A DNA stretch of 45,699 nt from Alphaproteobacteria bacterium (GTDB taxonomy: Bacteria > Pseudomonadota > Alphaproteobacteria > Rhizobiales > Hyphomicrobiaceae): contig JAHJSN010000187.1 of NCBI GenBank assembly GCA_018830445.1, positions 1 through 45,699 on the forward strand. Reading direction: 5' to 3'. The notes under the pieces are model-generated. The model worked only from the letters and a program-made list of their open reading frames with translations, searched no databases and was not told the origin of the DNA. Positions within the stretch are counted from its first letter, which is position 1. Each line of letters begins with the position of its first letter. Position numbers and translations under genes: made by a program. This document shows, one piece after another, positions 1 through 39,920 of the stretch.

Positions 1-140
1 AACCTGAATGTCAGCCCGGAACAATGTCAGCCCGGAACACTCTCAGCCCGGAACACTTGGCAACCTTTTGATTGTGTTCTGGATTCACAAACATTTGACG
101 ACCTCCACCCGGGAATCAAATGTTTGATCCAGAACACTAG
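1..140. repeat. Palindromic modules A (partial) and B, copy 1
   Basis: Module A (here cut by the window edge) carries the unit CAGCCCGGAACA three times. Module B is a long hairpin: arm GTGTTCTGGAT pairs with ATCCAGAACAC and inner arm CAAACATTTGA pairs with TCAAATGTTTG, around a short loop containing CACCCGGGAA. The module ends in CTAG. The same A+B pair recurs at 22346, 27553 and 30495, and B alone at 39840. No transposase is seen, so this is a non-autonomous repeat. Similarity to miniature transposable elements is an inference. Confidence 0.85.
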
Positions 141-212
141 TGGCCTGTCTCGCCTAAATCGGTGTGCTGGCCGCAACCGCTGACGATTTAGGCGAGACCG
201 GAAGGCCACTAG
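137..212. repeat. Palindromic module D
   Basis: This 76-bp inverted repeat starts CTAGTGGCC and ends GGCCACTAG. Inner arms are GTCTCGCCTAAATCG and CGATTTAGGCGAGAC, around a loop of about 20 bases. It shares its first CTAG with the end of module B, so the two are joined at that tetranucleotide. Only a 9-base remnant of D is found again in the window, at 39827-39849 beside module C. Confidence 0.8.
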
Positions 213-224
213 CGAAAACAATGG

Positions 225-305
225 CTTAGTGTGGCGTTCAGCGCGCCTCAATTGACAACTCCTGTGCGGCACCAACAGGTCAATTAAGGCGCGACGCCAC
301 ACTAG
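225..305. repeat. Palindromic module C, copy 1
   Basis: An inverted repeat of about 80 bp begins TTAGTGTGGCGT and ends ACGCCACACTAG. Inner arms CGCGCCTCAATTGAC and GTCAATTAAGGCGCG pair imperfectly, and CCTGT/ACAGG close the tip. The spacer GCGAAAACAATGG between D and C is also kept in the second copy at 39744, where the block is inverted. The tract 306-369 beyond it shows nothing recognisable. Confidence 0.8.
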
Positions 306-369
306 AGGGTCGCTCCGGGCGGCCCTTTCGCTGCCTGATGCCAGTTTGCATTTTCAAATGAATTCTGCC

Positions 370-768
370 TCATTCCAGCCCCAGCCGCTTCCGTTCCGCG
401 TGGTAGGTTTCGCAGGGCGGAAATAGAGTCGGGACGGAACACTGCTGTTTGAGTTCGTCGCAAATATCAGCCACCTTGCTGGTGGTCGTGCCGGCGGCGC
501 ATTCGGCGGCGATGTAGCCCTTCATATAGCTGTTGAAAGCGTGCGGGCCCAGCGGGTGCGAGTGGGTGTAGCCGATCGCTCCGCCGACAACGACCAATCC
601 AACCAACCAGGCGAGAAGCGTCCGGCCGATAACCCAGCCGCGTTTCGATAGCCGGACCCACGCCGGCTTGATCAAGCCGGCCACCAAGTGCAGTGCGCCC
701 AACAGCACGCAGAGCAGGAAGAACCCCTGCGCGACGGTCTGGATCAAGACGAGAGTGTCGTAGGTCAT
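370..768 (-). CDS. small hypothetical membrane protein
   Basis: A 132-residue protein of unknown family. Residues about 7-32 (hydrophobic, ending LVAGLIKP) and 47-68 (LLAWLVGLVVVGGAIGY) are likely membrane spans. The C-terminal 60 residues are polar and hold four cysteines (AAEC, DIC, QQC, PPC), which could form disulfides if that part faces the periplasm. The ATG is preceded by GAGAGG at a suitable distance. It stands alone between the repeat mosaic and a gene-poor tract, so context gives no function. The coding call is supported by the hydrophobic pattern and the ribosome site, not by a recognised homologue. Confidence 0.6.
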   Translation of the reverse strand: MTYDTLVLIQTVAQGFFLLCVLLGALHLVAGLIKPAWVRLSKRGWVIGRTLLAWLVGLVVVGGAIGYTHSHPLGPHAFNSYMKGYIAAECAAGTTTSKVADICDELKQQCSVPTLFPPCETYHAERKRLGLE

Positions 769-1144
769 CGGTTATCCTCTCTTCGCCACATCTCATTTTA
801 CGCTCTGGGACCGGCAGCGCGGCGACATATTCTCCCTTTCAGACTAACAGCGAAAGCCACACGGACATTGGTCTGAATGTCTTTGGACGTTCGACCCTGA
901 AATCGCCAGACCTGAAGCCGTTGCGCGCCGACATGGCGTCGCGTTAATTTGCTAGGCGAGACACCCACACAGTTCAGGTGGTTGGCGCATAGACATTATG
1001 AAAAGTTCCAATTTCCCCAAATTGCAAGGCAGATTCCGGTGCTTTATCTACGCAAAGGGACCGGGAACTGAAACGGCCGCGAATGCCCCGACACATCCAC
1101 CCCGCGGGTGTTAGAGGTGTTTTGGTCACTGACGGTTTGGGGGG

Positions 1145-1212
1145 GCCCGCACTCGGATCTGTAACAATGGCAGCCCGCCACGGGCAGAGCCATTTGCGGT
1201 TCGGGTGCGGGC
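1145..1212. repeat. 68-bp imperfect hairpin
   Basis: GCCCGCAC at the left end pairs with GTGCGGGC at the right. Inside, ATGGC pairs with GCCAT and GCCCG with CGGGC around a 4-5 base tip. No T-run follows on either strand, so a simple terminator is unlikely. It lies next to a second, larger inverted repeat. Confidence 0.6.
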
Positions 1213-1235
1213 AAATTTTTTGCGCCTTCGTCCGC

Positions 1236-1363
1236 CAACACAAGCTTGGCGCAGTGTTGGGCAGGATGCCCAGACAGGTCGTCTTTGCTCCACACTTCCT
1301 TTGCTCAACACCTGTTTGCCCAACATTCGGCGAGCCGATGTTGGAGCGCGCAAGCTTGTGTTG
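1236..1363. repeat. 128-bp long inverted repeat
   Basis: The outer arms CAACACAAGCTTG (left) and CAAGCTTGTGTTG (right) match perfectly. An inner pair, TGTTGGGCA and TGCCCAACA, lies about 20 bases further in. The overall form is a long cruciform-like palindrome of the size of a miniature inverted-repeat element. Only one copy was seen in the window. Confidence 0.65.
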
Positions 1364-1507
1364 ACGGTCTAAAGTCGTGTGGAAGCGGCAAATTACTGCT
1401 GTTCAGCAGTGAGCCGTGAGCATGGTGTGTGGCGGGGCGAGCCCCCCCAATCAAGCGGACCGCAGGTGGCCGGCCCAATACGGCTTCAGCAAGTGTTGAA
1501 AAGCCAA

Positions 1508-2479
1508 TCAGCCGCCCCAGAGCGTGATCGCGGCGGGACCCAGGATCACGACGAAAAGAACCGGCAGGAAGAACAGGATCATCGGCACGGTCAGTTTCGG
1601 CGGCAGGGCGGCAGCCTTCTTTTCGGCTTCCGACATGCGGATATCGCGGTTTTCCTTGGCCATGACGCGCAACGCCTGAGACACCGGTGTGCCGTAGCGT
1701 TCAGCCTGGATGAGCGCCGTCGCGACGGCCTTCACGCCGGGGATGCCGGTGCGCTTGCCGAGGTTTTCGAACGCCAGGCGGCGTTCCTGAAGGTAGGACA
1801 ATTCGGCGGTCGTCAGCGAAAGCTCTTCGGCCAGTTCAAGAGAGGTCGCCATGACCTCCTTCGACACCTTGCCGAACGCGGCTTCGACCGACATGCCCGA
1901 CTGCACGCAGATGAGCAGCATGTCGAGCGAATCGGGGAACGCCTGCTTGATCGCCTGCTGGCGCTTTTGCACCATATTCACGATGAAGACGTTGGGCAGA
2001 TAGTAACCGATGACGCCCGCGATGACGGCGAAGAACACCTTGACCGGCGGCGGGTAGGACAACTCGGCTACCACGAACATGTAGAAGAGGGCGCCGAAGA
2101 AAACGATGAAGGGCATGGCGAGGCGGAAGAACATGTAGGTGACGAGTGGCGCCTGGCCGCGCAGGCCGGCCATCTTCAGCTTGGTCCGCACCTCTTCGGA
2201 GTCGAAATGCTTGCGCAGGTTGAGCTGATCAACGATCTGCTGCATGTAGCCCTTCGGGGCCTGGCGAAGGTTGGCACCGGGACGTTCGGCGGCCAGTTCA
2301 GCCATCCGCTGAGCCCGCATCTTGTCGCGCTCGGTGGCCATGACCTTCATGCGCTGGCTCATGCGGTCGCTCGACATGATCGGAATCGCGATCGTGATCA
2401 CCGTTGCAAAGGCCGATACTGCCGCAAGCAGCGTGATGAGGAACTGCGGCCGCATGACTGTGTCGATGAATTCCATCAT
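1508..2479 (-). CDS. tadC: Tad pilus inner-membrane platform protein TadC
   Basis: TadC is one of two GspF/PilC-type membrane proteins that form the inner-membrane platform on which the Flp pilus is built. The product is 323 residues from the chosen ATG, the usual TadC length. It has an N-terminal span (LITLLAAVSAFATVITIAI), a central hairpin (near FFRLAMPFIVFFGALFYMF and VFFAVIAGVIGYYLPNVFI), the T2SSF domain with PDSLDMLLICVQSGMS, and a C-terminal span ending GPAAITLWGG. A GTG 17 codons upstream also opens the frame, but its extension is polar and lacks a ribosome site. It is the last gene of the cpa/tad run, 65 bases after tadB. Confidence 0.9.
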   Translation of the reverse strand: MMEFIDTVMRPQFLITLLAAVSAFATVITIAIPIMSSDRMSQRMKVMATERDKMRAQRMAELAAERPGANLRQAPKGYMQQIVDQLNLRKHFDSEEVRTKLKMAGLRGQAPLVTYMFFRLAMPFIVFFGALFYMFVVAELSYPPPVKVFFAVIAGVIGYYLPNVFIVNMVQKRQQAIKQAFPDSLDMLLICVQSGMSVEAAFGKVSKEVMATSLELAEELSLTTAELSYLQERRLAFENLGKRTGIPGVKAVATALIQAERYGTPVSQALRVMAKENRDIRMSEAEKKAAALPPKLTVPMILFFLPVLFVVILGPAAITLWGG

Positions 2480-2544
2480 GGCGATTTCGACGTCCTTCGT
2501 CCGTGTCGAGAGGCGGCCCGCACGAGCCACCGGTGGAGTTCAAG

Positions 2545-3540
2545 TCAGTACTTGAAATTGATCATCTTCTGCATCACGAGCACGCCGCAACCCATCCAGA
2601 ACAGGCCGACACCGATCATGAAGTGTCCCATCTTGGTCGTCAGCAGCGGCATGATATAGTCAGGCGACGACAAGTAGACCATGATCATCACGCCTGGCGG
2701 CAGAGAGGCGAGCACGGCAGCAGAAGCGGTGGCTTCAGCCGACAGCGCCTTCACCTTCATGGCCATGCGAATGCGCGAACGCAGCACTTCGGACAGGTTG
2801 CCGAGCGCTTCGGACAGGTTGCCGCCGGCCTGGGCTTGGATGCCGATAACGATCGTGAGAAAGCGGACTTCCGGCAGCGGCATGCGGTCGGCAAGTCGTT
2901 CGAGTGCTTCGCCGAGCGGAATGCCGACGCGTTGCTGTTCGACGACTTCCCTGAATTCGGAGGCAATCGGCTCGGGGCTTTCGCGGGCGACGATCTGAAG
3001 ACATTCGTTGAGCGGCAGACCGGACTTCACACCACGGACCACAACGTCAAGCGAGTTGGCCATTTCAGCGAGGAACTTCTGCTGGCGCTTTTTGGTCAGC
3101 TTGCCCAGCATCCAGCGCGGCACGCCGAACATTCCAACGAATCCGGAAACCATCGCGGCTACGTGGGTCAGTAGCGAGCTTTCGAGAGACAGAACGACGG
3201 TCACCACACACACCGCACCAAAGACGGCGCTGGTAATCCAGAACGCCTGTGGCGTCATCTTGAGACCGGCGCGCTGCAGGCGCAGTCGAAGATTGATCTT
3301 CTCCTTCTGCTTCTGGCGGTCTTCGAGCTCCTTCAGCTTGTCGGAAACCTGCTTGCGCCGGTTCGCTGCATTATCGGCAGCGCTGCGCGAGGCTACCTTC
3401 ACCTGGCGGTTCTCGGTCACGCTCGCCATGCGCTTCTCGGCGGACTTGTCGGCGCCGAATATCGGGTAGATCAGCGTGAAAATCAGTGCCGAAACGGCGA
3501 TGGCGCCGAACAGGGGAAACAGAAGATCGGGACTAGCCAT
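2545..3540 (-). CDS. tadB: Tad pilus inner-membrane platform protein TadB
   Basis: TadB is the partner of TadC in the inner-membrane assembly platform and receives force from the CpaF ATPase. The product is 331 residues: an N-terminal span, a lysine/glutamate-rich cytoplasmic stretch (about 40-90), two spans near residues 100-150, and a T2SSF domain with MANSLDVVVRGVKSGLPLNE, then a C-terminal span. The chosen ATG (ATGGCTAG) overlaps the TAG stop of cpaF, which suggests translational coupling, and AGGTG lies about 8 bases upstream. A GTG three codons earlier is possible but less well placed. Confidence 0.92.
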   Translation of the reverse strand: MASPDLLFPLFGAIAVSALIFTLIYPIFGADKSAEKRMASVTENRQVKVASRSAADNAANRRKQVSDKLKELEDRQKQKEKINLRLRLQRAGLKMTPQAFWITSAVFGAVCVVTVVLSLESSLLTHVAAMVSGFVGMFGVPRWMLGKLTKKRQQKFLAEMANSLDVVVRGVKSGLPLNECLQIVARESPEPIASEFREVVEQQRVGIPLGEALERLADRMPLPEVRFLTIVIGIQAQAGGNLSEALGNLSEVLRSRIRMAMKVKALSAEATASAAVLASLPPGVMIMVYLSSPDYIMPLLTTKMGHFMIGVGLFWMGCGVLVMQKMINFKY

Positions 3541-5026: not shown

Positions 5027-5125
5027 TGCTCGCTCACTCCTAGAAGTCTTGCCTCGGTATTCGTCTCTATTATGAGAGAGAGTCCCTAAACATTCGTTTC
5101 CAAATGCTTCTTATGGGGACTCAGA

Positions 5126-5169
5126 AGCCCGCCTGTTCGCTCGTTCGTGAAAGCGTCCGCAGGCGGGCT
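5126..5169 (-). terminator. hairpin between cpaE and cpaF
   Basis: AGCCCGCCTG and CAGGCGGGCT form a perfect 10-bp stem with a ~24-base loop, in the 215-base gap downstream of cpaE and upstream of cpaF. Read on the minus strand it is followed by TCTGAGTCCCC rather than a clean T-run. It may therefore be a weak terminator, an attenuator or an RNA-stability hairpin that lowers expression of the distal genes. Confidence 0.4.
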
Positions 5170-5241
5170 CCAGTTTGTCGTACGGCACCAGTGAGACGGG
5201 GATGAACCGTTGCGATTGCAGCCGCCAATGCCCGCCGTGGT

Positions 5242-6555: not shown

Positions 6556-6572
6556 GATCATTCCTGCTCGAA

Positions 6573-10498: not shown

Positions 10499-10610
10499 CA
10501 CAACACCAACCTCCGAACTCACCACACAACAACTTTCAGCGGATCATGATGCGTGCAGCCTAATTTATGCTTAATGCCCGCTGGCCATCGATGTGCCTTG
10601 ACCTCTCCAG

Positions 10611-10718
10611 ACTGGCAGGATCGGCAAGACCGGCTGGCTTGGCAAGACTGGCTGGCTTGGCAAGACCGGCTGGCTTGGCAAGACCGGCTGGCTTGGCAAG
10701 ACCGGCTGGCTTGGCAAG
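10611..10718. repeat. 18-bp minisatellite, six units
   Basis: Six head-to-tail 18-bp units of consensus ACCGGCTGGCTTGGCAAG occupy the gap between flp1 and cpaA. The first unit is divergent, the third differs by one base and the other inner units are identical. The period is a multiple of three, so open frames run through it on both strands (LARPAG or AKPAGL repeats). Neither frame has a plausible start context, so it is treated as non-coding. Near-identity of the units suggests recent expansion. Confidence 0.9.
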
Positions 10719-10782
10719 ACAAGCAGCGGCCCAAACTGCGAGCCGCTGAGAAGTAGTCATCGATTGTCGCGCGCAGCCGGCT

Positions 10783-10941: not shown

Positions 10942-11189
10942 ACCCTGTCTCTCCACTCTCACCTTTTTATTCGGCTTTTCATAGCCGCCATCCAAGGTCT
11001 TTTGTATAAAAACATTAGCCCCTAATACACTAACAGACTGTAGCTCAATTTATTGTCCGAAGCTGAGTTTGTGAATTCGCCAAAGAATGGGTTAACGGGG
11101 GCCGACAGCATTTTTTGGCATATCGCGAAACACTCCTGGATCGGCGACAATGCGGGCTTCCTACCAAGGCCAGCTCCGCAGGCGACTTT

Positions 11190-11226
11190 AAAAGCAAGAA
11201 AGCCACCCGGGCGAACCGGGTGGCTT
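11190..11226 (-). terminator. rho-independent terminator of flp2
   Basis: On the minus strand the stem AAGCCACCCGG/CCGGGTGGCTT with loop TTCGC is followed by TTTCTTGCTTTT. It begins about 40 bases after the flp2 stop. A near-identical copy follows flp3 at 12015-12051. Confidence 0.85.
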
Positions 11227-11266
11227 CCTTTCGTTCGCAATGCCTTTCGGATTGCGAGACCCTGAC

Positions 11267-11425
11267 TCAGAGGAAACCGATGATTTCGGTGAACAGAGCG
11301 TTCAAGGCGTCGCGCAGGAAGCCGAGGCCGGTGATGATGCCAACGCCGACAACGGCAGCGATAAGGCCGTATTCAATTGCGGTAGCGCCCGACTCGTCTT
11401 TAGCGAAAGCGTGGATCTTCTGCAT
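11267..11425 (-). CDS. flp: Flp-type pilin (flp2)
   Basis: A 52-residue Flp prepilin with leader MQKIHAFAKDESG and the cleavage/IEY motif ATAIEYGLIAA, then the hydrophobic pilin helix and C-terminus TEIIGFL. GGGAGAG lies upstream of the ATG. It differs from flp3 at only two residues (Ala for Ser at positions 24 and 40), and the duplication includes the flanking DNA. It has its own terminator, so each flp gene can be a separate, strongly expressed unit. Confidence 0.94.
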   Translation of the reverse strand: MQKIHAFAKDESGATAIEYGLIAAVVGVGIITGLGFLRDALNALFTEIIGFL

Positions 11426-11522
11426 TGTAACTCTCCCAAGATGATGCAAGATTTGCTCGTGATGATTGCCCGACGCGTTGTTTGTTTGCGCCGTCGACAA
11501 GAACCAATCTAAGCCCCAGCAA

Positions 11523-11537: not shown

Positions 11538-12014
11538 ACCCAATTATTGCAATGCGTTAATGCTGCACCTTGTAGTAAATAAAGGGTAACTCAAATCCAT
11601 TAAATCGCATTTGGATATTGATACGGCAATCCGCCTCGCGCCCAGCCGAGCCTATATACCTATATTATTGGCGCAAATTCCCACCCGGCACGGATAATGC
11701 GTTCCAGCTCGACGCCGCAGCAAAAAAACAAACCGGGTGAGCAAATAGTTACCATTGCTGCTTCATTTTATGCAACCACCCCAAGGGAAATTGGTTTGAC
11801 TGCTTCCGATACAATTGCTTTCTTACTTCCCCGACTTATTTCACCTGGGGGGGGCGTCGGTATTCTAAAACAGATATTCGATTCCGGGGGCAGGCCCGCA
11901 AAAGTCTGTGAACCCAGAACACCGACACCTGACGAAATCGATGTGCCGGGCTGACGCTTGGGAACCAAGCGCAACAGACGGAATAGCAGCCTGTCGGCTG
12001 GTGCAAGCGCCTTT

Positions 12015-12051
12015 AAAAGCAAGAAAGCCACCCGGACGAACCGGGTGGCTT
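12015..12051 (-). terminator. rho-independent terminator of flp3
   Basis: On the minus strand AAGCCACCCGG pairs with CCGGGTGGCTT around loop TTCGT, followed by TTTCTTGCTTTT. It is a copy of the flp2 terminator with one loop change. Confidence 0.85.
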
Positions 12052-12091
12052 CCTTTCGTTCGCAATGCCGTTTGGCTCGCGAGACCTTGAC

Positions 12092-12250
12092 TCAGAGGAA
12101 ACCGATGATTTCGGTGAACAGAGCGTTCAAGGAGTCGCGCAGGAAGCCGAGGCCGGTGATGATGCCGACGCCGACAACGGAAGCGATGAGGCCGTATTCG
12201 ATTGCGGTTGCGCCCGACTCGTCTTTAGCGAATGCGTGGATCTTCTGCAT
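12092..12250 (-). CDS. flp: Flp-type pilin (flp3)
   Basis: A 52-residue Flp prepilin, nearly identical to flp2, with leader MQKIHAFAKDESG, motif ATAIEYGLIAS and C-terminus TEIIGFL. GGGAGAG precedes the ATG. It is the first flp in the direction of transcription and is separated from flp2 by its own terminator and ~650 bases. A 98-base leader or upstream tract shared with flp2 holds the same CtrA-like box. The three-gene flp set may give mixed pili or dose control. Confidence 0.94.
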   Translation of the reverse strand: MQKIHAFAKDESGATAIEYGLIASVVGVGIITGLGFLRDSLNALFTEIIGFL

Positions 12251-12801
12251 GGTAACTCTCCCAATGTGATGCAAGATTTGCTCGTCATGATTGCCCGACG
12301 CGTTGTTTGTTTGCGCCGTCGACAAGAACCAATCTAAGCCCAAGGCATTAATCCCTAGTTACTTCCAAATATTTATAGGCGTTAATAGTGCACTTAAAAA
12401 CAAATAAACTGTGTCCCAGCCACAATAACATCAAGTCAAACATGACTTCCTCAAGTTACCCGGCAATTTTTCCAAAATCTATACTTTGATCAATCTGATA
12501 AATCCTCGTTCGCGATGGATAATAGTTTGTTACTCGGCCCTGCGGCGGATAAAATGCAGACTGTATTGTAGCCGAGGCGATGCTGCCGGATTGGCGTTGT
12601 ACTTCGGAAGTCTTGATCGAATCAGACATGATGTTCCTGGCGTCGACGACTTGATCGATCCGGCAGGGCGCGTGGGCGTGGCAACGCCCATATGAGCGCG
12701 GGCGAACGCACTGAACGTACCAACGCAGTGCAGGCGTTTGCACTTCGTTCATAATTTCCTGGCCTAATCGCGTGCGACACTCCCTGAAAGGAGAGACTTT
12801 C
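12251..12801. other. divergent regulatory region between flp3 and the plus-strand pilus genes
   Basis: This 551-base, AT-richer region must hold the promoters for flp3 (minus) and for the secretin-N-domain gene (plus). A minus-strand frame of 98 codons (12456-12752, start MNEVQ with AGGA five bases upstream) is open. Its codon choice is AT-rich and unlike the neighbours, and no family was recognised, so it is not called as a gene. Confidence 0.5.
12348..12362 (-). promoter_or_regulatory. CtrA-like box upstream of flp3
   Basis: TTAA-TCCCTAG-TTAC, one mismatch from TTAA-N7-TTAA, lies 98 bases upstream of the flp3 ATG. The half-sites are the same as at flp2 although the bases between and beyond them differ. 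Role inferred. Confidence 0.4.
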
Positions 12802-13341
12802 ATGCTGAATTCGACATTCCGTCGCGCCCAAGGCCGTCGCGCCCAAGACCGTCGCGCCCAAGACCGTCGCGCACAAGGCCCACTTTCGATGATCCTGGCC
12901 GCAGCCCTCAGCGCGCTGGCCGGCGCGGCCTCGGCCAATGACCTGATCGTCCGTTACGATCAATCGCAGTTGCTGCGCCTGCCGCGGGCCATCAGCCAGG
13001 TCATCATCGGCAATCCTTCGATCGCCGACGCATCCGTGCAGGGAACCAACCTTATTGTTGTGACCGGCAAGACTTTCGGGGTCACCAACATCATCGCCCT
13101 CGACAAACAGGGCAACGTGATCCAGGACCAGCGCGTTATCGTTCAGCGAGACGACGTGCGGATGGTCAACCTGCACAAGGGCAGCCAGCGGCAGTCGTTT
13201 ACCTGCGCCCCGCATTGCACTCCAACGATCACCATTGGCGACGACAAGGAGTTCTTCGAGACGATCTCGGGGCACGCACAACGCAAGACGCAGTTTTCCG
13301 CTAGCGAAAGCGATGCCGGCGGCGGCGGCGGCGGCCAGTAA
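12802..13341 (+). CDS. secreted pilus-assembly N-terminal-domain protein
   Basis: A 179-residue exported protein. The mature part starts near SANDLIVRYDQSQLLRLPRA and matches the pilus/secretin N-terminal domain (T2SS-T3SS pil_N), with VIIGNPSIADASV and KTFGVTNIIALD strands like those at the start of CpaC, but with no secretin channel. It probably acts in the periplasm with the secretin. The ATG has AAAGGAGAG upstream. An oddity is that the n-region of the signal peptide is stretched by four 15-bp repeats giving RRAQG/RRAQD units. The end is glycine-rich. It is the first of three plus-strand pilus genes and is followed by a terminator. Confidence 0.85.
   Translation: MLNSTFRRAQGRRAQDRRAQDRRAQGPLSMILAAALSALAGAASANDLIVRYDQSQLLRLPRAISQVIIGNPSIADASVQGTNLIVVTGKTFGVTNIIALDKQGNVIQDQRVIVQRDDVRMVNLHKGSQRQSFTCAPHCTPTITIGDDKEFFETISGHAQRKTQFSASESDAGGGGGGQ
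12820..12879. repeat. 15-bp in-frame tandem repeat, four units
   Basis: Four units of consensus CGTCGCGCCCAAGAC lie within the signal-peptide n-region of the pilus-assembly protein and encode RRAQ(G/D). The units differ by only one or two bases. Confidence 0.9.
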
Positions 13342-22292: not shown

Positions 22293-22345
22293 CGATGCCC
22301 CCAATGGCAACAAACGCGAGCGGCGCACCGGCGATGGCCGAACAC

Positions 22346-22489
22346 TAGTGCTCCGACTCTGACATATGGTTCCCTGCCGGGAACCTGAATGTCAGCCCGG
22401 AACACTAGGCAACCATTTGATTGTGTTCTGGATTCACAAACATTTGACGACCTCCACCCGGGAATCAAACGTTTGCTCCAGAACACTAG
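22346..22489. repeat. Palindromic modules A and B, copy 2
   Basis: The element starts CTAGTGCTCCGACTCTGACA and ends CCAGAACACTAG. Module A pairs CTGACAT with ATGTCAG and GGTTCCC with GGGAACC around TGCC. A joins B at a CTAG, and B differs from copy 1 at three positions in its arms. It lies between the Sel1 protein gene start and rimO. Confidence 0.88.
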
Positions 22490-27221: not shown

Positions 27222-27387
27222 CTAATGTTCCGGCCCCGACACTTGGTTCCCCTTGCAGCACGCTATCGACCAAGTGTCGGAGCCTCAAGGAACACGAGCA
27301 AAACTTAAGATTCTCGTGTAGCTTTTGCACCAAACGTTTGGCATCGAGCCAAGCCGCAAGTGGGGACCGAACGTCAGGTGCGCTACA
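27222..27387. repeat. Palindromic module E, tandem copy 1
   Basis: The 166-bp unit begins CTAATGTTCCGG. Its first half is a hairpin with CCGACACTTGGT and ACCAAGTGTCGG; its second half pairs GTGTAGC with GCTACAC, TGCACC with GGTGC and ACGTT with AACGT. A short ACGAG/CTCGT stem links the halves. It is followed directly by a second copy. Confidence 0.88.
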
Positions 27388-27552
27388 CTAGTGTTCCGGC
27401 CCCGACACTTGGTTCCCCTTGCAGCACGCTATCGACCAAGTGTCGGAGCCTCAAGGAACACGAGCAAAACTATGATTCTCGTGTAGCTTTTGCACCAAAC
27501 GTTTGGCATCGAGCCAAGCCGCAAGTGGGGACCAAACGTCAGGTGCGCTACA
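27388..27552. repeat. Palindromic module E, tandem copy 2
   Basis: The 165-bp copy starts CTAGTGTTCCGG and is nearly identical to the first, differing by a small change at AAAACTATGATT (one base shorter) and an A for G at GGGACCAAACG. It joins module A of the next element with no gap. Confidence 0.88.
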
Positions 27553-27697
27553 CTCGTGCTCCGACTCTGACATATGGTTCGCTGCCGGGAACCTGAATGT
27601 CAGCCCGGAACACTAGGCAACCTATTGATTGTGTTCTGGATTCACAAACATTTGACGACCTCCACCCGGGAATCAAATGTTTGATCCAGAACACTAG
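27553..27697. repeat. Palindromic modules A and B, copy 3
   Basis: The element starts CTCGTGCTCCGACTCTGACA, so its left boundary is CTCG rather than CTAG, and ends CCAGAACACTAG. It closes a 476-bp block of palindromes (E-E-A-B) lying between the CpxP-like gene and the response regulator, 50 bases before the latter's start codon. Confidence 0.88.
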
Positions 27698-27747
27698 CGT
27701 GACAAACTGGCCGGGGACGTCGCTTCCCGGCCCGTCATTGCGGCAAC

Positions 27748-28479
27748 ATGGACGAAGCCAGACGGCCACCGGAGCCAACAGACTTGGTGCAACACCTCCT
27801 TCTCATCGAAGACGACGAGCGGCTGGCGCGGATGATCTGCGACTACCTCGAAGGCGCGGGATATCGATTGCGTCACGCCAACACGGGTGCAGAAGGTCTT
27901 GCGTTGCAGCGCGAACAACCCTTCGACGCGATCATCCTGGACCTCATGCTGCCGGACATGGACGGGCTCGACGTGTGCCGCTCGGTGAGGGCGGAGGCGC
28001 GGACGCCGATCCTGATGCTGACGGCGCGCGGGGAAGCGATGGACCGCATTCTCGGACTGGAAATGGGAGCCGACGACTACCTGCCCAAACCATTCGAGCC
28101 GCGTGAACTGCTGGCGCGGCTCAAGGCTATCCTGCGGCGCGCGGGCGGGAACAGCCCCGTTGGGGACAGCGACGTCCTGCGGTTCGGGCGGCTCGAAATC
28201 GACCGCGGCGCGCGCGAAGCGCGCCTTGACGGTGAAGCCTGCCAGCTGACCGGCCACCAATTCGAGATGCTTCGCGCACTGGCCGAGCATCCCGGCCGCG
28301 TCCTTACCCGCGAGCAGATCATGGACCTGGTGCGTGGCGAAAACCTCGAAGCTTTCGACCGCTCGATCGACGTGCATATTTCGCGCATCCGGCAAGCCAT
28401 CGAAGACAACCCCAAGGAGCCGCGCCGCATCATCACTGTGCGCGGTGCAGGCTATGTCTTCGCCAAGGCGCAGGAATGA
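27748..28479 (+). CDS. OmpR-family response regulator (CpxR-like)
   Basis: A 243-residue two-component response regulator. The receiver domain (about 15-128) has acidic EDD (21-23), phospho-acceptor Asp65 in IILDLMLPDMDG and Lys114 in DYLPKPFEP. The C-terminal winged-helix DNA-binding domain (about 145-240) ends in VRGAGYVF, typical of OmpR/PhoB. A GTG at codon 14 (VQHLLLIEDD) is a possible alternative start. It precedes its kinase by 9 bases. Its promoter must lie in, or be displaced by, the palindromic block that ends 50 bases upstream. Confidence 0.93.
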   Translation: MDEARRPPEPTDLVQHLLLIEDDERLARMICDYLEGAGYRLRHANTGAEGLALQREQPFDAIILDLMLPDMDGLDVCRSVRAEARTPILMLTARGEAMDRILGLEMGADDYLPKPFEPRELLARLKAILRRAGGNSPVGDSDVLRFGRLEIDRGAREARLDGEACQLTGHQFEMLRALAEHPGRVLTREQIMDLVRGENLEAFDRSIDVHISRIRQAIEDNPKEPRRIITVRGAGYVFAKAQE

Positions 28480-28488
28480 GGGACCGAG

Positions 28489-29811
28489 ATGCTTTATCGG
28501 CTTTCGACGCAGATATATCTGACGATCATTCTGACGCTGGTTGCCGTGGTCGTCGTTGCCGGCGGGATCTGGCGGCAGTCCGGCGGGGAACGGCGGTTCG
28601 AGCATGCCATCGAAGTCGCCGGAGAGCTGCTCGCGAACGGACTTCCCGCGGCGTCGGCACCGATTTTTGAGCAGCGCGATGCGGCTCTCGATCTGGCCAA
28701 GCGTCTGCGGCTCGATCTTGCGCTCTATGATTCCAACGGCGTGGAAATCGCCCATTTCGGACGCCCATTGCCAACGCCGCGCCAACACGACCGCGAGCGT
28801 GTCGGCGACGAATACGAAGGTGGTTTCGTCCGCGGTCCCGACGGTCCGGCATGGGCGGTGCCGCTTCCCGACGGGCGCCTGATCGTCGCCAGCACGCACA
28901 GGCGGCATCCACCGCCGCGACCGGTCCGCGTGATGGTTTTTCTCGGCGCAGCGGCGCTGATCGTCGGGCTGTGCGCGTGGCCGGTGGTGCGCGGACTGAC
29001 GCGGCGAATCGAGCGCTTGCAGGAAGGGGTCGAGCGCTTCGGATCGGGAGATTTTTCCGCCCGCGTCGACGTCAGCGGGCGTGACGAGGTGGCGAAACTT
29101 GCGCGCAGTTTCAACGCGTCGGCCGAGCGCATCGAATCCCTCATAGGCGCAAACAAACTGCTTCTTGCAAATGCCAGTCATGAATTGCGTACCCCGTTAG
29201 CGCGGGTGCGCATGGGGCTCGAACTGATGCAGTCCGATCCGGGACCGGATCGGCGCGCGGCTCTCGAAGCCGACATCGGCGAAATCGACGACATGATCGA
29301 GGAGATCCTGCTGCTCAGCCGGCTCGACGCTATCGGCGGGCTCGATGAACGCTGCGACGTCGACCTGCTGGCACTCGCCGCGGAGGAGGCCTCGCGCTAT
29401 CCGGGCACCGATGTATCGGGTGAGGCGGTGACGCTCAGCGGGGATGCGCGCCTGCTGCGGCGGCTGGTCCGCAACCTGATCGAAAATGCAATCAAGCACG
29501 GCGCGGCGCCGGTGGCAGTTTCGGTAGGGCGAGACGGCGGACAGACCGTGCTGCGTGTTTCGGACAATGGCCCGGGAGTCAGCTCAGATATCGCAGAGCA
29601 GGTTTTCGAACCGTTTCACCGCGGCCCATTGCGCGGCAAAACCGGCGGCAGCGGCCTCGGGCTGGCGCTGGTGCGCTCGATTGCGGAGCGCCACGATGGT
29701 AGCGTGCGTTTCGAAGCACGCGGGGGCGGCGATGGGCGGCTCAATCAGGTGGTGGTGCGGCTCGGATGCGGTGCGACTACCGGCAGCGAGGAAACGCCCT
29801 GCCGTGCGTAG
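28489..29811 (+). CDS. sensor histidine kinase (CpxA-like)
   Basis: A 440-residue membrane sensor kinase. Two spans (about 9-27 and 147-166) flank a periplasmic sensor loop of ~120 residues. A HAMP domain (about 165-220) leads to the HisKA domain with phospho-acceptor His231 in NASHELRTPLAR. The ATP-binding domain shows the N box NLIENAIKHG, the G1 box SDNGPGVS and the G2 box GGSGLGLALV. All motifs are intact. It pairs with the response regulator directly upstream. The CpxP-like neighbour suggests envelope stress as the signal, an inference. Confidence 0.93.
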   Translation: MLYRLSTQIYLTIILTLVAVVVVAGGIWRQSGGERRFEHAIEVAGELLANGLPAASAPIFEQRDAALDLAKRLRLDLALYDSNGVEIAHFGRPLPTPRQHDRERVGDEYEGGFVRGPDGPAWAVPLPDGRLIVASTHRRHPPPRPVRVMVFLGAAALIVGLCAWPVVRGLTRRIERLQEGVERFGSGDFSARVDVSGRDEVAKLARSFNASAERIESLIGANKLLLANASHELRTPLARVRMGLELMQSDPGPDRRAALEADIGEIDDMIEEILLLSRLDAIGGLDERCDVDLLALAAEEASRYPGTDVSGEAVTLSGDARLLRRLVRNLIENAIKHGAAPVAVSVGRDGGQTVLRVSDNGPGVSSDIAEQVFEPFHRGPLRGKTGGSGLGLALVRSIAERHDGSVRFEARGGGDGRLNQVVVRLGCGATTGSEETPCRA

Positions 29812-30494: not shown

Positions 30495-30717
30495 CTAGTG
30501 TTCCGACTCTGACATATGGTTCCCTGCCGGGAACCTGAATGTCAGCCCGGAACACTCAGCCCGGAACACTGGCAGCCCGGAATACTGGCAGCCCGGAATA
30601 CTGGCAGCCCGGAATACTGGCAGCCCGGAACACTTGGCAACCTTCTGATTGTGTTCTGGATTCACAAACATTTGACGACCTCAACCCGGGAATCAAATGT
30701 TTGATCCAGAACACTAG
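30495..30717. repeat. Palindromic modules A (expanded) and B, copy 4
   Basis: The element starts CTAGTGTTCCGACTCTGACA and ends CCAGAACACTAG. The right arm of module A has expanded into a tandem array: the unit CAGCCCGGAATACTGG (16 bp) recurs at 30557, 30573, 30589, 30605 and 30621, after a 14-bp unit at 30543. Module B has one change in its loop (CAACCCGGG). The terminal CTAG supplies the TAG stop of the patatin gene on the minus strand. Confidence 0.92.
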
Positions 30718-31979
30718 AAATTGTCGAAAGCCGCCGGGAAGGTCTGTTGGTCGATCGACCGGGCGCCATAGGCCAGACCGATGGCATGGCAACGATTGAG
30801 GTTTGCCTGTTCGGCAAGATCCATCTGCTTCAACTTGTTTATCACCCGGCTCGAATAGGCAAACTCCTCGCCAAGGGTTGTTCGCAACCAGTCCGGTTCA
30901 AGGCGGACATTGGCGCGGTGATAGGTCAGCAGCGGCTCGTCGACGATGCGCAGGCCTTGCATATCCTCGAGGGCGCGGTTGATATACTGGCCCTTCGCCG
31001 ACTCGGAAATCGACTGCATGAAGACGACGCTGGCGGTTTCGGCATCGCTGATGATCCCGCGAAGCGCGTGGATGGCCTTGCCGACCGCCCATTGCTTGCG
31101 GAAATTCTTGACGTCCTGCCGGTCGCGCCACATTCCGGTGCCGAGCGACAGCATGAAGAGGTTGTCGGCGCCGGTCGACCACTCAAAGCCATAGGGCGAT
31201 GCATGACATCGCTGGCCCGAGCGAGCGTGACGCCGAAGCGTCGTCATGATGAAAAGCTCACTACTGGGATTGTTGCATGGGCTGGCGCCGCCATCGAAGA
31301 ACAGCCCCCTCTCCTCGGGTGAGATATCGATGTCGACGGCATCCAGGTAATAGGGTGCCGACGCACTTGCCTGGGCGACCTTGCGAAGGGCGTAGCTGCG
31401 GCCCGCGTAGAATTTCGCCTCGTCGGGTCGTGCTGCCCAGTAGTCCTTCCAAGGTTCCGAGGTGGAGTCCCAGAACTTGTGCCGTGGGTTGTTGGAGAGC
31501 ATCCAGACACTGCCGGTATCGATCCGCTTGGTGGCGATTGCCAGTCCGGTGCGCAGAAGAGTCGTATCCATCGTCGGCTCGTGAGGCTTGACGCGGTTTG
31601 CCGCCAACACCTCCGCGAAGGCATGTCGCATCACCGCGTCGAACCCCTTGGGATCGAATTTCGAGCGGATACCCGGTATCCAGCTGCTGCCGCGGAAAAT
31701 TCTCGGGCACATGTCGAAATAGAGCCTGGTGATTTCGTCGACGGTTTCGCCGAGCGCCAGCAGCGTCGCCATCAACGCACCGGTCGAGGTGCCGCCGATC
31801 AAATCGAAATAGTCGCTCAGCCGGAATTCGTCGCCCCTGCCGCTTCGCTCTTTCAATGTGTCTTCGACATGTTTCAACATGCCGAGCGTAATCAGGCCGC
31901 GGACCCCGCCGCCGTCCAACGACAAGACCCGCTTGGGCTCCTTCAGAAATAAATGCTCCTGCAATGACTTCGGCATCAT
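30714..31979 (-). CDS. patatin-like phospholipase (CapV-like)
   Basis: A 421-residue cytoplasmic patatin-type acyl hydrolase. It has oxyanion motif DGGGVRG (22-28), nucleophile Ser65 in GTSTG and catalytic Asp in FFDGGASPCNNP, so the Ser-Asp dyad is complete. Its length and C-terminal layout resemble patatins used as CBASS effectors, but no cyclase or other CBASS gene is nearby, so it is not called as one. GGAAGG precedes the ATG. The TAG stop lies inside the CTAG edge of a palindromic element, so the last residues may have been altered by the insertion; the protein nonetheless ends plausibly (FPAAFDNF). Confidence 0.88.
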   Translation of the reverse strand: MMPKSLQEHLFLKEPKRVLSLDGGGVRGLITLGMLKHVEDTLKERSGRGDEFRLSDYFDLIGGTSTGALMATLLALGETVDEITRLYFDMCPRIFRGSSWIPGIRSKFDPKGFDAVMRHAFAEVLAANRVKPHEPTMDTTLLRTGLAIATKRIDTGSVWMLSNNPRHKFWDSTSEPWKDYWAARPDEAKFYAGRSYALRKVAQASASAPYYLDAVDIDISPEERGLFFDGGASPCNNPSSELFIMTTLRRHARSGQRCHASPYGFEWSTGADNLFMLSLGTGMWRDRQDVKNFRKQWAVGKAIHALRGIISDAETASVVFMQSISESAKGQYINRALEDMQGLRIVDEPLLTYHRANVRLEPDWLRTTLGEEFAYSSRVINKLKQMDLAEQANLNRCHAIGLAYGARSIDQQTFPAAFDNF

Positions 31980-32270
31980 TCGGGCCTTCCCGTTCGCATC
32001 AAAATCGCAAAAGACTATATGAAGCGATCGGCGCGCGAGAAGCAACGCGGTTCGAAGGGCAGCACGGAATAGGGGCCGGGTCGCAGCGGAATGGCAACGG
32101 TCCCGCCAGTAGGGCGCCCATCAGACCAAGCGACCCGGCCGTGGTCCCGGTGCATGATTCGGGTTAGCCTTCACACCTTTGCCACCGTGCAATGTTAGGC
32201 GTTTCGGCGAATTCGGCATGCCCGGCTGAATGCGTCAAACCGCACCGGCCCTCAGTCAGGAACCCAGCAG

Positions 32271-34449: not shown

Positions 34450-34893
34450 CTATTCGCCCAGCGCGCGCTTTCTGGCCAGCATGCGGTCGCGGTCGGTGAC
34501 GTGGATGAGGCCGGCGATCTGGCGGATCAGCTGATCCTCGTGCGGATCGAGAGTGCCGTCGGCGTAGGCAACCGACCACAACATCTCGATGATCTCGACC
34601 TTTTCCTGCGCACTCAAGTTCGTGTTTATTTCGTGGGTGAGCGGAAAATAATGTGCGCTTTGCGCCATCCGCTCGTCAGCAGCAGTGATGAGCGTCGCGG
34701 CTTCTTCGCCAGTCAGTTCAAATCGTCGTGTCAGGAGGTTGGTAATCGTCTGGCGTTCGGCCTCACCGAACTGCTGATCCATCCGGGCCGCCTCGACCAG
34801 GAGGGCGGCGACCTCGGCACGATGATCGCTGCTGGCGGCGCGGGATACGTGCCGCTCCTTACCGGTTACGAGTTTGAGCAGTTGATCGAACAT
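34450..34893 (-). CDS. TerB-family tellurite resistance-like protein
   Basis: A 147-residue helical protein of the TerB/DjlA-like group. The diagnostic acidic stretches are present: LVEAARMDQQFGEAE near residue 35 and SVAYADGTLDPHEDQLI near residue 108, both metal-binding-type helices. These proteins are cytoplasmic and often linked to stress responses, but their reaction is unknown. GGAGG and AAGGA lie just before the ATG. It follows the molybdenum hydroxylase genes after about 70 bases and is probably a separate unit. Confidence 0.85.
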   Translation of the reverse strand: MFDQLLKLVTGKERHVSRAASSDHRAEVAALLVEAARMDQQFGEAERQTITNLLTRRFELTGEEAATLITAADERMAQSAHYFPLTHEINTNLSAQEKVEIIEMLWSVAYADGTLDPHEDQLIRQIAGLIHVTDRDRMLARKRALGE

Positions 34894-34965
34894 ATCCTTG
34901 AGTTGCCCTCCCTGGTTCTACTGGTGGCTGGCTCAGGCGGGGCAAGCCGACGATCCACTTCAAAC

Positions 34966-37179: not shown

Positions 37180-37194
37180 GGGGGGCGCTCCGGG

Positions 37195-37659
37195 TCAGCC
37201 TTTGAGGGTCGAGGCGGCGGTATGAATCGCCTTGCGGATGCGAACGTAGGTGGCGCAACGGCAGATGTTGCCGGTCATGCCTGCGTCGATGTCGGCGTCG
37301 GTGGGCGCTGGGATCTGGCGCAGCAGGGCGACGGCGCTCATGATCTGGCCGGACTGGCAGTAGCCGCATTGGGGAACGTCGTGGGCGATCCATGCGTCCT
37401 GGATGGCCTTGGCTTCGGGGCCGGAAACCGCCTCGATGGTGACGATGTCGCTGCCGGCGGCGGCCTCGACCGGGGTGACGCAGGAGCGTTGCGGCTGGCC
37501 GTCGACGTGGACGGTGCAAGCGCCGCACTGGGCGACACCGCAGCCGAACTTGGTGCCGGTCAAGCCCAATTCTTCGCGCAGCACCCAGAGCAGGGGTCTA
37601 TCGGGGTCGACGTCGACCTGATGCTCTTTGCCGTTCACTTGAAGTGCGAATTTCGCCAT
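37195..37659 (-). CDS. [2Fe-2S] subunit of the molybdenum hydroxylase (IorA-like)
   Basis: A 154-residue electron-transfer subunit. The plant-type ferredoxin cluster is held by Cys40, Cys45, Cys48 and Cys60 ([10 protein letters not shown] and RSC); the second cluster by Cys98, Cys101, Cys133 and Cys135 ([10 protein letters not shown] and CRC). All eight are present. It has no signal of its own and would be carried out by the Tat signal of its partner. The ATG is preceded by GGAGG. It is the first gene of the pair. Confidence 0.94.
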
Positions 37660-37848
37660 TGCGGACCTCCGGGCGTGGGGGATCAGGGACTGTGTGGCCG
37701 TCGTCGACCACAATCGTGGCATAACGGTGTAACGCGGTTAAGGCGAAATGGCTCCGCTCACGGGAACTTTAGTTGCCGGACGGACAGCATGGTGCACGGG
37801 GAGCGTGTCCCTAAGAACCGAACATTCAACTCCTGTCGCGCCATGGAT

Positions 37849-37867
37849 CCCGGGGACTACCCCCGGG
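37849..37867 (-). terminator. hairpin downstream of prfC
   Basis: CCCGGGG pairs with CCCCGGG around a short loop, about 80 bases beyond the prfC stop. No T-run follows on the minus strand, so it may only stabilise the transcript end. The rest of the 37660-37947 gap shows nothing recognisable. Confidence 0.35.
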
Positions 37868-37947
37868 TTGACACTGGGAGGCTCGACCCAGCGGGCAATG
37901 ACTTGGGCTAAACTTAACGCACCCTACCAACTCACTTGTCCTCCTGC

Positions 37948-39600
37948 TCACCCCGCGTTGACCGTCTTGATGTCGATGAACTCGATTTCGGGGTGGCGGT
38001 CGCGGGTGGTGGAGAGGTTGTAGATCGACGGCGCGAGATAGACGTAATCGCCGTCGAGGTCCTTGGCGATGTTGGCGCGGTAGCGGTCGGTGAATTTCTT
38101 CAGGGCCTTTTCATCCTCGCATCTGATCCAACGCACCGTGTCGCAGGGCGCCGGATCGTAGGCGGCATCGAGGCCGTATTCGTGCGTCAGGCGGTCGACG
38201 AGCACGTCGAGCTGGAGTGCGCCGATGACGCCGACGATCGGCTGGGTGCCATCGACGGGATTGAAGAGCTGCACGACGCCTTCTTCGGCCATCTCCTGGA
38301 GTGCGTCTTTCAGCTTCTTCGCCTTGATCGCATCCTCGAGGCGGACGCGGCGGAGGATCTCGGGAGCGAAGTTGGGAATACCGAGGAAGGTGATGTCCTC
38401 GCCTTCGGTCAGCGCGTCGCCGATGCGCAGGAGGCCGCGGTTGGGGATGCCGACGACGTCACCGGCGTAGGCTTCCTCGGCCAGAGAACGATCCTGCGCA
38501 AAAAAGAACTGCGGCGCGCTCAGCGCCATGGTCTTGCCGGTGCGCGGAACCTTGACCTTCATGCCGCGCGTCAGCTTGCCCGAACACACGCGCATGAAGG
38601 CGATGCGGTCGCGGTGGTTGGGGTCCATGTTCGCCTGAATCTTGAAGACGATGCCGGTCATCTTCTGTTCCATCGCCTCGACGATGCGGGTCGAGGCCTT
38701 CTGCGCGCGCGGCGGCGGGGCATGGGCGACAAGCGCATCGAGCAGATCGCGGACGCCGAAGTTCTTCAAGGCGCTGCCGAAGAAGACCGGCGAAAGCGTG
38801 CCCTGGCGGAAGGCTTCGGCGTCAAACGAACCGGCGGCGTCTTCCAGCAGGGAGACTTCCTCGCGCCAGTTATCCAAATCGCTGCCTTCGAGGAGCGTGT
38901 CGAATATCGGGTCGTCCGGTCCAGTGACGGGGACGCCGCTCGGGTCCTCGTCGACGCGGCGCACGCGGCGGGCGGCCAGATCGTAGGTGCCGCGGAAACT
39001 CGCGCCCTTGCCGATCGGCCAGACCATCGGAGCCGTATCGAGGGCCAGCGTCTGTTCGACCTCGTGCAGGAGGTCGAGCGGCTCCTGCGCCTCGCGGTCC
39101 ATCTTGTTGACGAAGGTGATGATGGGGATGTCGCGCAGGCGGCAGATCTCGAACAGCTTCAAGGTGCGCGCCTCGATACCGCGCGCGGCGTCGATCACCA
39201 TGATCGCCGAATCGACTGCTGTCAGCGTGCGGTAGGTGTGGTCGGAGAAATCCTCGTGACCGGGCGTGTCGAGCAGGTTGAAGACGCTGCCGCCATATTC
39301 GAACGTCATTACCGACGTGACGACGGAAATGCCGCGCGACTTCTCGATCGCCATCCAGTCGGAGCGGGTCGAGCGGCGGTCCTTCTTGGCCTTGACTTGG
39401 CCGGCGAGCTGGATGGCGCCGCCGAACAGCAGAAGCTTCTCGGTCAGCGTGGTCTTACCGGCGTCGGGGTGGGAAATGATCGCGAAGGTGCGGCGGCGGG
39501 CGATCTCGTAGCCGAGGTCGCCGGGCTTGCCCGCCGGCTTGGCGGATGCCGAAGCAACGCCCGCGGGGGCGGCTTTCGTCGGGGACAGTCCGTCCTGCAT
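37948..39600 (-). CDS. prfC: peptide chain release factor 3
   Basis: RF3 is a translational GTPase that removes RF1/RF2 from the ribosome after termination. The product is 550 residues, slightly longer than typical because of a ~20-residue Ala-rich N-terminus. G1 is SHPDAGKTT, the switch region has [16 protein letters not shown]3 is DTPGHEDFS and G4 is NKMD. The RF3 domains II and III and the C-terminal domain follow in order. No clear ribosome site precedes the ATG. Codons 20-106 are duplicated, with two base differences, 1217 bases upstream at 40500-40760. Confidence 0.96.
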   Translation of the reverse strand: MQDGLSPTKAAPAGVASASAKPAGKPGDLGYEIARRRTFAIISHPDAGKTTLTEKLLLFGGAIQLAGQVKAKKDRRSTRSDWMAIEKSRGISVVTSVMTFEYGGSVFNLLDTPGHEDFSDHTYRTLTAVDSAIMVIDAARGIEARTLKLFEICRLRDIPIITFVNKMDREAQEPLDLLHEVEQTLALDTAPMVWPIGKGASFRGTYDLAARRVRRVDEDPSGVPVTGPDDPIFDTLLEGSDLDNWREEVSLLEDAAGSFDAEAFRQGTLSPVFFGSALKNFGVRDLLDALVAHAPPPRAQKASTRIVEAMEQKMTGIVFKIQANMDPNHRDRIAFMRVCSGKLTRGMKVKVPRTGKTMALSAPQFFFAQDRSLAEEAYAGDVVGIPNRGLLRIGDALTEGEDITFLGIPNFAPEILRRVRLEDAIKAKKLKDALQEMAEEGVVQLFNPVDGTQPIVGVIGALQLDVLVDRLTHEYGLDAAYDPAPCDTVRWIRCEDEKALKKFTDRYRANIAKDLDGDYVYLAPSIYNLSTTRDRHPEIEFIDIKTVNAG

Positions 39601-39743
39601 GAAACTAGCTGGTTATCCGCGTAGTGGAAGTTGAGATCCGGCTTCTATCGCAACTGCGGAAAAAACGCGAGGGTATTAGCGCCCTTCAAAACCAGATGAA
39701 GCCATTCGGCTGGCGTGAATTCGCCGCGGCAGAACGATTCGAG

Positions 39744-39920
39744 CTAGCGTGGCGTCGCGCCTTAATTGACCTGTTGGTGCCGCACAGGAGTTGTCAATTG
39801 AGGCGCGCTGAACGCCACACTAAGCCATTGTTTTCGCTAGTGGCCTTTTGATTGTGTTCTGGATTCACAAACATTTGACGTCCTCCACCCGGGAATCAAA
39901 TGTTTGATCCAGAACACTAG
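39744..39920. repeat. Palindromic modules C (inverted), D remnant and B, copy 5
   Basis: The element begins CTAGCGTGGCGTCGCGCC: this is module C of copy 1 in inverse orientation, with the same spacer (CCATTGTTTTCG). It is followed by CTAGTGGCC, the end of module D, fused directly to module B (TTTTGATTGTGTTCTGG), which ends in CCAGAACACTAG. Compared with copy 1 most of D and all of A are missing. It lies between the prfC start and the pseudogene tract. Confidence 0.9.

Follow-up and report, generated by a model that had tools for sequence, protein, structure and literature searches.

Contig JAHJSN010000187.1 of an alphaproteobacterium of the family Hyphomicrobiaceae (assembly GCA_018830445.1) contains several palindromic repeats with CTAG edges, some of which are joined to one another at this word. 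The complete contig, 45,699 nt in length, is referred to here as the window; it is contig C177 of a draft genome (G000) comprising 4,154,527 bases in 213 contigs. The locus raises the question of what the mobile unit is, which enzyme moves it and why its copies form chains. A first-pass annotation had described five unrelated hairpin modules (A-E), all bounded by CTAG and freely combined, and had named IS5-type transposases as one possible cause. Our analysis points instead to hairpin pairs as the usual units, two of which, AB and E, are very probably miniature inverted-repeat transposable elements (MITEs) of the IS630/Tc1-mariner type, landing on CTAG as double-hairpin units and presumably moved in trans.

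All five repeat sites of the first-pass annotation were recovered. The word CTAGTG occurs 16 times in the window versus 4.95 expected (none of 100 shuffled sequences reached 16), and CTAG as a whole is depleted (25 versus 50.65 expected). The sites resolve into the following features:

1-140, plus strand: AB unit, its left part lost at the contig start; the A part carries three tandem copies of its inner tip, and the B part spans 56-140.
137-305, plus strand: DC unit, composed of hairpin D (137-212), a linker and hairpin C (to 305).
22345-22489, plus strand: AB unit of full length.
27222-27391, plus strand: E unit, first copy, composed of hairpins E1 and E2.
27388-27556, plus strand: E unit, second copy, head-to-tail with the first and joined to the next AB unit at CTCG.
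27553-27697, plus strand: AB unit, whose outer CTAG contains the TAG stop codon of a 495-amino-acid open reading frame (ORF; 27694-29181, minus strand).
30495-30717, plus strand: AB unit with the inner tip of A tandemly repeated; its outer CTAG contains the stop codon of a patatin-like gene (30714-32045, minus strand).
39744-39847, minus strand: inverted DC unit, broken off inside D.
39844-39920, plus strand: B part of an AB unit, joined to the truncated D (a recombination scar).

The CTAG at 137-140 is common to the first AB unit and the DC unit. The sites of the five modules are thus real; however, B and C have CTAG on their outer side only (their inner edges read TTGATT-GTG and CTTAG-TG, respectively), the outer ends of A, B and E are all of the IS630 type (see below), and C and D have CGTCGCGCCTWAA in common in relatives. 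What had been termed an expanded A is a short tandem repeat of its inner tip, found in 7 of the 18 full AB units of the sample described below (158-173 bp), and the supposed chain of an inverted C, a D remnant and B consists of an inverted DC unit truncated inside D plus the B part of an AB unit. At least this one join (39744-39920) is a recombination product.

Genome-wide pattern matching with up to three mismatches yielded 226 matches to A, 158 to the D arm (both arms counted), 93 to the outer end of C and 53 to the left end of E, and none to the reversed patterns used as controls; many of the matches listed are at most a few hundred bases from the end of a contig, and copies may therefore have been split or counted twice. 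Units were delimited by blastn with the three pairs (AB, DC and E) in a sample of 769,557 bases, made up of the window and ten long contigs; such a sample may be poor in elements, since contigs tend to break at them. Six of the 71 matches, with less than 79% identity, were discarded, and 65 were kept in 49 islands (35 single, 12 double and 2 triple). As the two-match island 30495-30717 is one expanded AB unit split in two, these correspond to 64 units, in 36, 11 and 2 islands, respectively. Some matches are truncated, part of them by a contig end. The usual units are pairs: AB (144-145 bp), DC (169 bp) and E (E1-E2, about 167-170 bp). Solo pieces of A, C or E2 are few (e.g. A at C34:3696-3759 and C at C117:65971-66049), and there are 15 joins between units. 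The units, of 145-170 bp, contain no transposase gene of their own. The proposal of non-autonomous elements that obey one target rule, with pieces in different combinations, is supported. Free interchange of single modules is not supported for this genome, where the unit is usually a fixed pair; it survives in the sense that different arms surround a similar linker and that two loci (L305 and L280, see below) have exchanged parts.

The only intact IS630-family gene detected in the genome with the DDE_3 domain is located at C137:5488-6597 (370 amino acids, no internal stop); a protein search added one IS630 fragment. The ends of this element, CTAGTGTAGC... and CTAGTGTTCTGACTCC...GGTTCCC, read as CTAGTGTAGCGGCGCCGACAAAAGATTCCC and, inverted, CTAGTGTTCTGACTCCAACGCTTGGTTCCC, and its right end shares 19 of 25 positions with the right end of AB. 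In a scan of named genomes for its relatives, from which its own genome was left out, the best among 79 of 584 loci was 77% identical (Mesorhizobium). Ends were searched for in 51 copies (47 of the 79 loci, the copy of G000, one of G033 and two adjacent copies of G010): C precedes the left TA in 42 and G follows the right TA in 48 of the 51, a few plainly misfound ends included.

A profile of IS630 ends (34 left, 32 right), with the TAGTG tip excluded from scoring, recognized the outer ends of AB and E: none of 20,000 shuffles of their own sequences scored as high, and only 0.005-0.017% of random 30-mers from the window did so. The inner ends, and those of D and C, scored at background or little above it (the best, the inner end of A, gave a shuffle P of 0.016). 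In comparison with 95 single IS630 ends, the outer ends of AB and E matched at 18-19 of 25 positions, in register (0 of 4,000 shuffles). Judged by these matches, AB and E have IS630-type ends; so, probably, do F and one end of H, two further double-hairpin units introduced below. The DC unit was not filed as an IS630-type MITE, because its ends match no IS630 end of this library. One intact transposase gene with ends matching those of AB and E is present in the genome, and the searches for a DC partner described below gave none.

The same evidence bears on the IS5 proposal. CTAG fits the YTAR target of IS5-type transposases and the flanks are compatible with a 4-bp duplication; however, the AB and E ends match those of IS630 in register, the genome encodes an IS630 transposase with such ends, and the IS630 relatives are mostly flanked by C-TA-G. 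We consider IS5-dependent movement highly improbable and set it aside, IS5 genes and ends not having been searched for. IS630 pieces were also found at many contig ends of genome G017; the end seen in L126 (CTAGTGTTCCGACTCAGTCGCTTGGTTCCC) is near those of AB and E, which makes this IS630 a candidate helper in a relative.

According to the mechanism we propose, an IS630 transposase acting in trans would cut the two outer ends of a two-hairpin unit, which would then insert into the TA of CTAG. An IS630 composite transposon reportedly prefers the TA in CTAG, to go by the title of a 1991 paper by Tenzen and Ohtsubo. Because each unit starts with G and ends with C, one CTAG would become two (C-TA-[G...C]-TA-G). 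A nested case was observed in genome G003, where a complete double-hairpin unit, F, interrupts the CTAG that separates C from D in one DC copy (L332); the same CTAG is empty in three other copies (L297, L331 and L340). The filled and empty letters fit a TA duplication in CTAG; a 4-bp duplication, or insertion beside a CTAG guide word, gives identical letters.

In the sample, 384 CTAGs were observed versus 726 expected from a second-order Markov model. The islands cover 9,038 bases (1.2%), and 118 of the 384 CTAGs lie in or at them, leaving 266 free. We simulated 64 insertions, each of which picks a random CTAG and leaves two. The 15 joins observed compare with a simulated mean of 10.7 (95% range 6-16; P 0.085), and chains therefore need no special attraction. 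They would form because CTAG is scarce in the genome and the elements supply a large share of the targets. The serial nesting suggested earlier, with each element landing on the CTAG of the last, is thus supported by the F insertion with its empty sites and by a join count that random landing predicts, with at least the recombinant at 39744-39920 as an exception. It also yields a testable rule for chains of small bacterial repeats: an element that doubles a rare target word would feed its own spread.

Two further loci contain insertion sequences in chains. In L115 (G010:C84) two IS630 copies stand head to tail, joined at CACTAGTG, and from this join the parent-type insertion sequence apparently chains like the MITEs. 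In L253 (G000:C182:1-446) the end of a different IS630 type (CTAGTACCCAGAATCAC...) is directly followed by an E unit and an AB unit, a chain of one insertion sequence and two MITEs.

Why, then, should two hairpins move as one unit? Each hairpin consists of an outer transposon end and, after it, the same end in inverted form, and this inner copy usually carries 3-4 extra bases, 8-13 nt from the tip. These bases may put the tip and the binding site out of phase, so that the transposase would use the outer ends only and the pair would move together. We examined the arms of DC-type hairpins (group II) by a motif search of loci from five genomes, which detected 168 hairpins (a stricter motif gave 132). 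In 163 of these, one arm is plain and the other has four extra bases; the remaining five, all in G003, have two plain arms (3) or two inserted arms (2). Of the inserted arms, 167 in all, 120 stand opposite a second inserted arm (at distance 15 in 118 cases and at distance 9 in 2), 32 are near a locus end and 15 have no detected partner. The partner was missed by the motif in L284, L340 and L361, F lies between the two arms of L332, and in L280 the place is taken by an E2-like hairpin; the other nine are considered below. The 169 plain arms behave differently: 161 have no DC-type partner despite room for one, 4 meet a second plain arm in a common CTAG, and the locus ends close to the other 4. 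Group II hairpins that stand alone, plain in both arms and flanked by CTAG on either side, occur in two loci of G003 (L286 and L347); one of these hairpins combines a D end with a C end.

A detector blind to the families, which looks simply for hairpins with TAG tips, returned 61 from the sample and 1, 0 and 0 from shuffled sequences; known units account for 58 of the 61. One of those outside known units (C106:12847) looks like chance. Among the hairpins are 12 double units. In 11 of them the spacing is 15-16 and each inner arm has 3-4 extra bases; the remaining one is the recombinant at 39745-39919 of the window (spacing 29). One of the 11 represents a further family, H, known from one copy (L263; G000:C83:50352-50517), whose arms are unrelated to the others and which has the same spacing and inner insertions. 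When a variant of the detector was applied to all loci collected, 44 double units could be told apart by their flanks. Both inner arms carry extra bases in 41 of these; the exceptions are F itself, in which the second hairpin lacks an insertion, a G011 unit that was mis-paired, and a pairing across C and F that is an artefact.

AB units were missed by the family-blind detector. Alignment (20 arm comparisons, two of them without register owing to an indel or a truncated end) revealed TCA inserted in B and no net insertion in A, so that inner-arm insertions occur in 8 of the 10 hairpin types (A, B, C, D, E1, E2, F1, F2, H1 and H2). The inserted letters are TTCA, TCAT, TCAG, TCAA, TTTA or TTGT in D and C, TCA in B and H1, TTAC in H2, TTT in F1, and TTGA and TTTT in E. 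Double-hairpin units with unrelated arms therefore share a skeleton, namely a linker of approximately 15 nt and an inner-arm insertion of 3-4 nt, often TTCA-like. No CTAG-tipped hairpins were found by the detector in the 79 fetched IS630 loci (305,935 bases), and the architecture therefore seems to belong to the MITEs; our searches of the open-licence PubMed Central (PMC) literature returned no description of it. For MITEs of the Tc1/mariner type, it raises the question of what an inverted, phase-shifted copy of the end does to the transposase, which it may help, block or orient.

Several observations count against this interpretation or parts of it. The ends of the C137 IS630 are not identical to those of AB or E. 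The ends of F (P 0.011 and 0.011) and H (P 0.19 and 0.0045) match the 95 IS630 ends less strongly than do those of AB and E, and low values were also obtained for some inner arms (A, 0.009; F2, 0.011; E2, 0.04), the inner and outer arms of F2 being almost the same in sequence. The inner insertion is missing from A and F2, and a rule of disabled inner ends is therefore not universal; in L240 and L056 the inserted arm itself stands at a CTAG edge. Solo A hairpins exist, and nine unpaired inserted arms have lost, truncated or swapped partners (L330, L335, L339, L085, L111, L240, L263, L056 and position 39745 of the window). The nested insertion with empty counterparts is a single case, and duplication of all 4 bp of CTAG cannot be distinguished by sequence from that of TA with fixed flanks. 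Finally, the DC ends match none of the 95 IS630 ends (P 0.71 for both), and neither pattern searches of 59 relatives and 397 genomes of the order nor DDE_3 searches of the five carriers of DC revealed a DC transposase, part of the hits having been inspected for G003, G011 and G415. The hits inspected were MITE copies and one chance match in a glycosyltransferase-like ORF (G124), and no DC-like ends were seen beside the DDE_3 matches of G415 and G034.

The DC result, in particular, invites comparison with elements resembling repetitive extragenic palindromes (REPs) and REPINs, moved by a hairpin-reading Y1 transposase (RAYT), for which CTAG would be a guide word without target duplication. The paired hairpins of the units, with their one-sided bulges and a fixed tetranucleotide, are reminiscent of ends of the IS200/IS605 type; the filled and empty letters of the F insertion would also fit this explanation. 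However, the similarity of the AB and E ends to those of IS630 extends in register over 25 bases, and the hairpins, of about 64-81 nt, are longer than REPs, which a passage of the literature describes as palindromes of 20-40 bp (PMC3733652). We regard movement by a Y1 enzyme as quite improbable, and retain an IS630 transposase as the likely enzyme for AB and E; DC may work in the same way.

The units resemble one another in their linkers also. These read GCAACACTATAATTC in H, (G)CAACACTATGATTC and relatives in E, GGCAACCTTTTGATT in AB, GCGAAAACAATGGCT or GCAACATCAATGACT in DC, and GCGAGATATTGTTTC in F. They were compared by a crude permutation test (20 comparisons, P values uncorrected, H and F represented by one copy each). 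In the same orientation, similarity was found for E-H (13 matches; 0 of 400 permutations), AB-H (P 0.003), E-AB (P 0.005), F-AB (P 0.013), F-H (P 0.025) and DC-E (P 0.048), and none above permutation for DC-AB (P 0.072), DC-H (P 0.083), F-E (P 0.085) and DC-F (P 0.27). The reverse-complement comparisons were null except F-H (P 0.035).

The two arms of the hairpins also vary jointly. Across 19 DC units, taken from five genomes, pairing holds for 96.3% of cells, and 8 of 48 pairs have changed on both sides; the covariation score is 0.118, as opposed to 0.055 when shuffled and at most 0.030 when slid. Further pair types in DC are unremarkable (93 of 500 shuffles reach the observed value). Copying of one arm from the other would also produce this covariation. 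Such copying would tend to erase the inserted bases, yet they are kept, which suggests that the insertion matters.

These features suggest either one chassis with exchanged arms or selection on the folded shape, and the data do not decide between the two. The former would add to IS630-type movement: a single ancestral double-hairpin chassis would underlie all families, with arms replaced by recombination with the ends of active IS630 elements and inner arms re-templated from the outer ones. It is favoured by the likeness of the E, H and AB linkers in the same orientation despite different arms, by the common spacing of 15-16 and single type of insertion (TTCA, TCA, TTTA, TTGA, TTTT, TTAC), by the joint changes of the arms, and by evidence that ends recombine, since L305 contains a D hairpin with the outer end of C, and L280, in a relative, D joined to an E2-like hairpin. 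Against it, the linkers are short and A+T-rich, those of DC resemble AB, H and F less, H and F are single copies in a crude and uncorrected test, and AB fits the skeleton in part (A without an insertion, B with three bases). On balance, we give such a chassis slightly less than an even chance.

More speculatively, and with a clearly lower probability, a single mobile chassis (near-constant 15-nt linker and TTCA-like inner insertions) might persist by swapping its arms for the ends of successive unrelated IS630 transposases, with the insertion as a polarity mark from which the enzyme would read which arm of a folded or symmetric hairpin lies outside. Extrahelical bases in the attC sites of integrons, which tell the enzyme which side to use, provide an analogy. 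If this were true, a mini-transposon would switch its helper by end swapping while keeping its shape, and the question arises of whether MITEs can change transposase by exchanging ends.

The distribution of the units differs between families. Of 59 genomes searched, counting this one, two gave matches to the A core, with 226 here and one in a congener (G003, a complete AB unit); the remaining 57 gave none. DC ends occur in 4 of the 59 (G000, 235 matches; G003, 96; G011, 52; G034, 4) and, in a slightly different pattern, in G415 (119 matches), found among 397 genomes of the order. The unit at 137-305 thus has counterparts in four relatives, and the five carriers represent three genera of one family. 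E-type double units are also present in G003 and G415. Plasmid searches with the AB, DC and E units gave no match, and neither the A core nor the exact DC pattern was found in viral contigs.

Some elements adjoin the ends of genes, as at 27694 and 30714 in the window. In the sample, the TAG at 11 of 67 usable element edges terminates an open frame that is 200 codons or longer and reads towards the element, with 1 and 2 such cases in the other two frames (binomial P 0.0007). The same test on free CTAGs gave 35, 24 and 58 of 532 in the three frames, and the element edges exceed them (11/67 versus 35/532; Fisher P 0.012). A stop codon survives such a landing because C-TA-G is rebuilt, and landings of this kind would be over-represented among survivors. 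Stop codons of the form C-TAG may thus be harmless landing sites. Comparison of orthologous genes in congeners yielded no empty sites, the proteins being too diverged; empty sites in relatives were obtained only for F in DC. The best homologues of the 495-amino-acid protein align to residue 468-478, and those of the patatin-like protein to residues 389, 415 and 303 of 442. These alignment ends agree with insertion at a natural stop codon for the former gene and less clearly for the latter, and constitute proof for neither.

Position just past stop codons could alternatively reflect a host role, such as protection of mRNA 3' ends, termination or attenuation, for which the hairpins would be kept. 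Their predicted RNA folding is strong (z -8.3 and -10.8 for the two strands of AB, -9.2 for DC and -5.5 for E), element edges lie at stop codons, and the DC arms exhibit compensatory changes in five genomes. However, AB is a lineage-specific burst, with 226 A matches here as against a single one among eight congeners, and compensation is also expected if both arms copy one transposon end. No Rfam match above the gathering score was obtained in the window. We consider retention for a host function unlikely.

Similar small repeats have been described elsewhere. The Rhizobium-specific intergenic mosaic elements (RIMEs) are, according to the title of the paper, mosaic repeats of alphaproteobacteria, and like the present units they are palindromic. 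Correia/NEMIS, BOX, BIME and other composite repeats are also short, highly folded and probably mobile, and some are composites of sub-units; they occur in other hosts, and the passages concerned mention no hairpins made of an end plus its inverted copy with an inner insertion. Elements of the IS630/ISY100 group (Tc1/mariner family), in the part of the source concerned, duplicate a TA target on insertion (PMC2170065). Our units would share this target; however, IS630 is autonomous, with a length here of about 1.1-1.2 kb, and the units are non-autonomous and hairpin-tipped. A close parallel is RUP of Streptococcus pneumoniae, a 107-bp element with ends like those of IS630-Spn1, a TA target and 108 copies, and passages of the same sources state that pneumococcal repeats cluster and have inserted into one another (PMC2229807, PMC3049150). 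RUP is likewise a short non-coding repeat with IS630-type ends that uses TA targets. It differs in that these passages present it as a simple repeat and mention no double hairpin, inner-arm insertion or CTAG rule.

The window contains other repeats as well. A 265-nt direct repeat (99% identical; 39279-39543 and 40496-40760) flanks the island at 39744-39920, and the beginning of a release factor 3-like gene on the minus strand (37951-39600) contains its first copy. A second direct repeat, of 300 nt (94% identical), occupies 11178-11477 and 12003-12302, 825 bases apart, and tandem repeats of 18 nt and 15 nt are present at 10591-10734 and 12819-12878, respectively.

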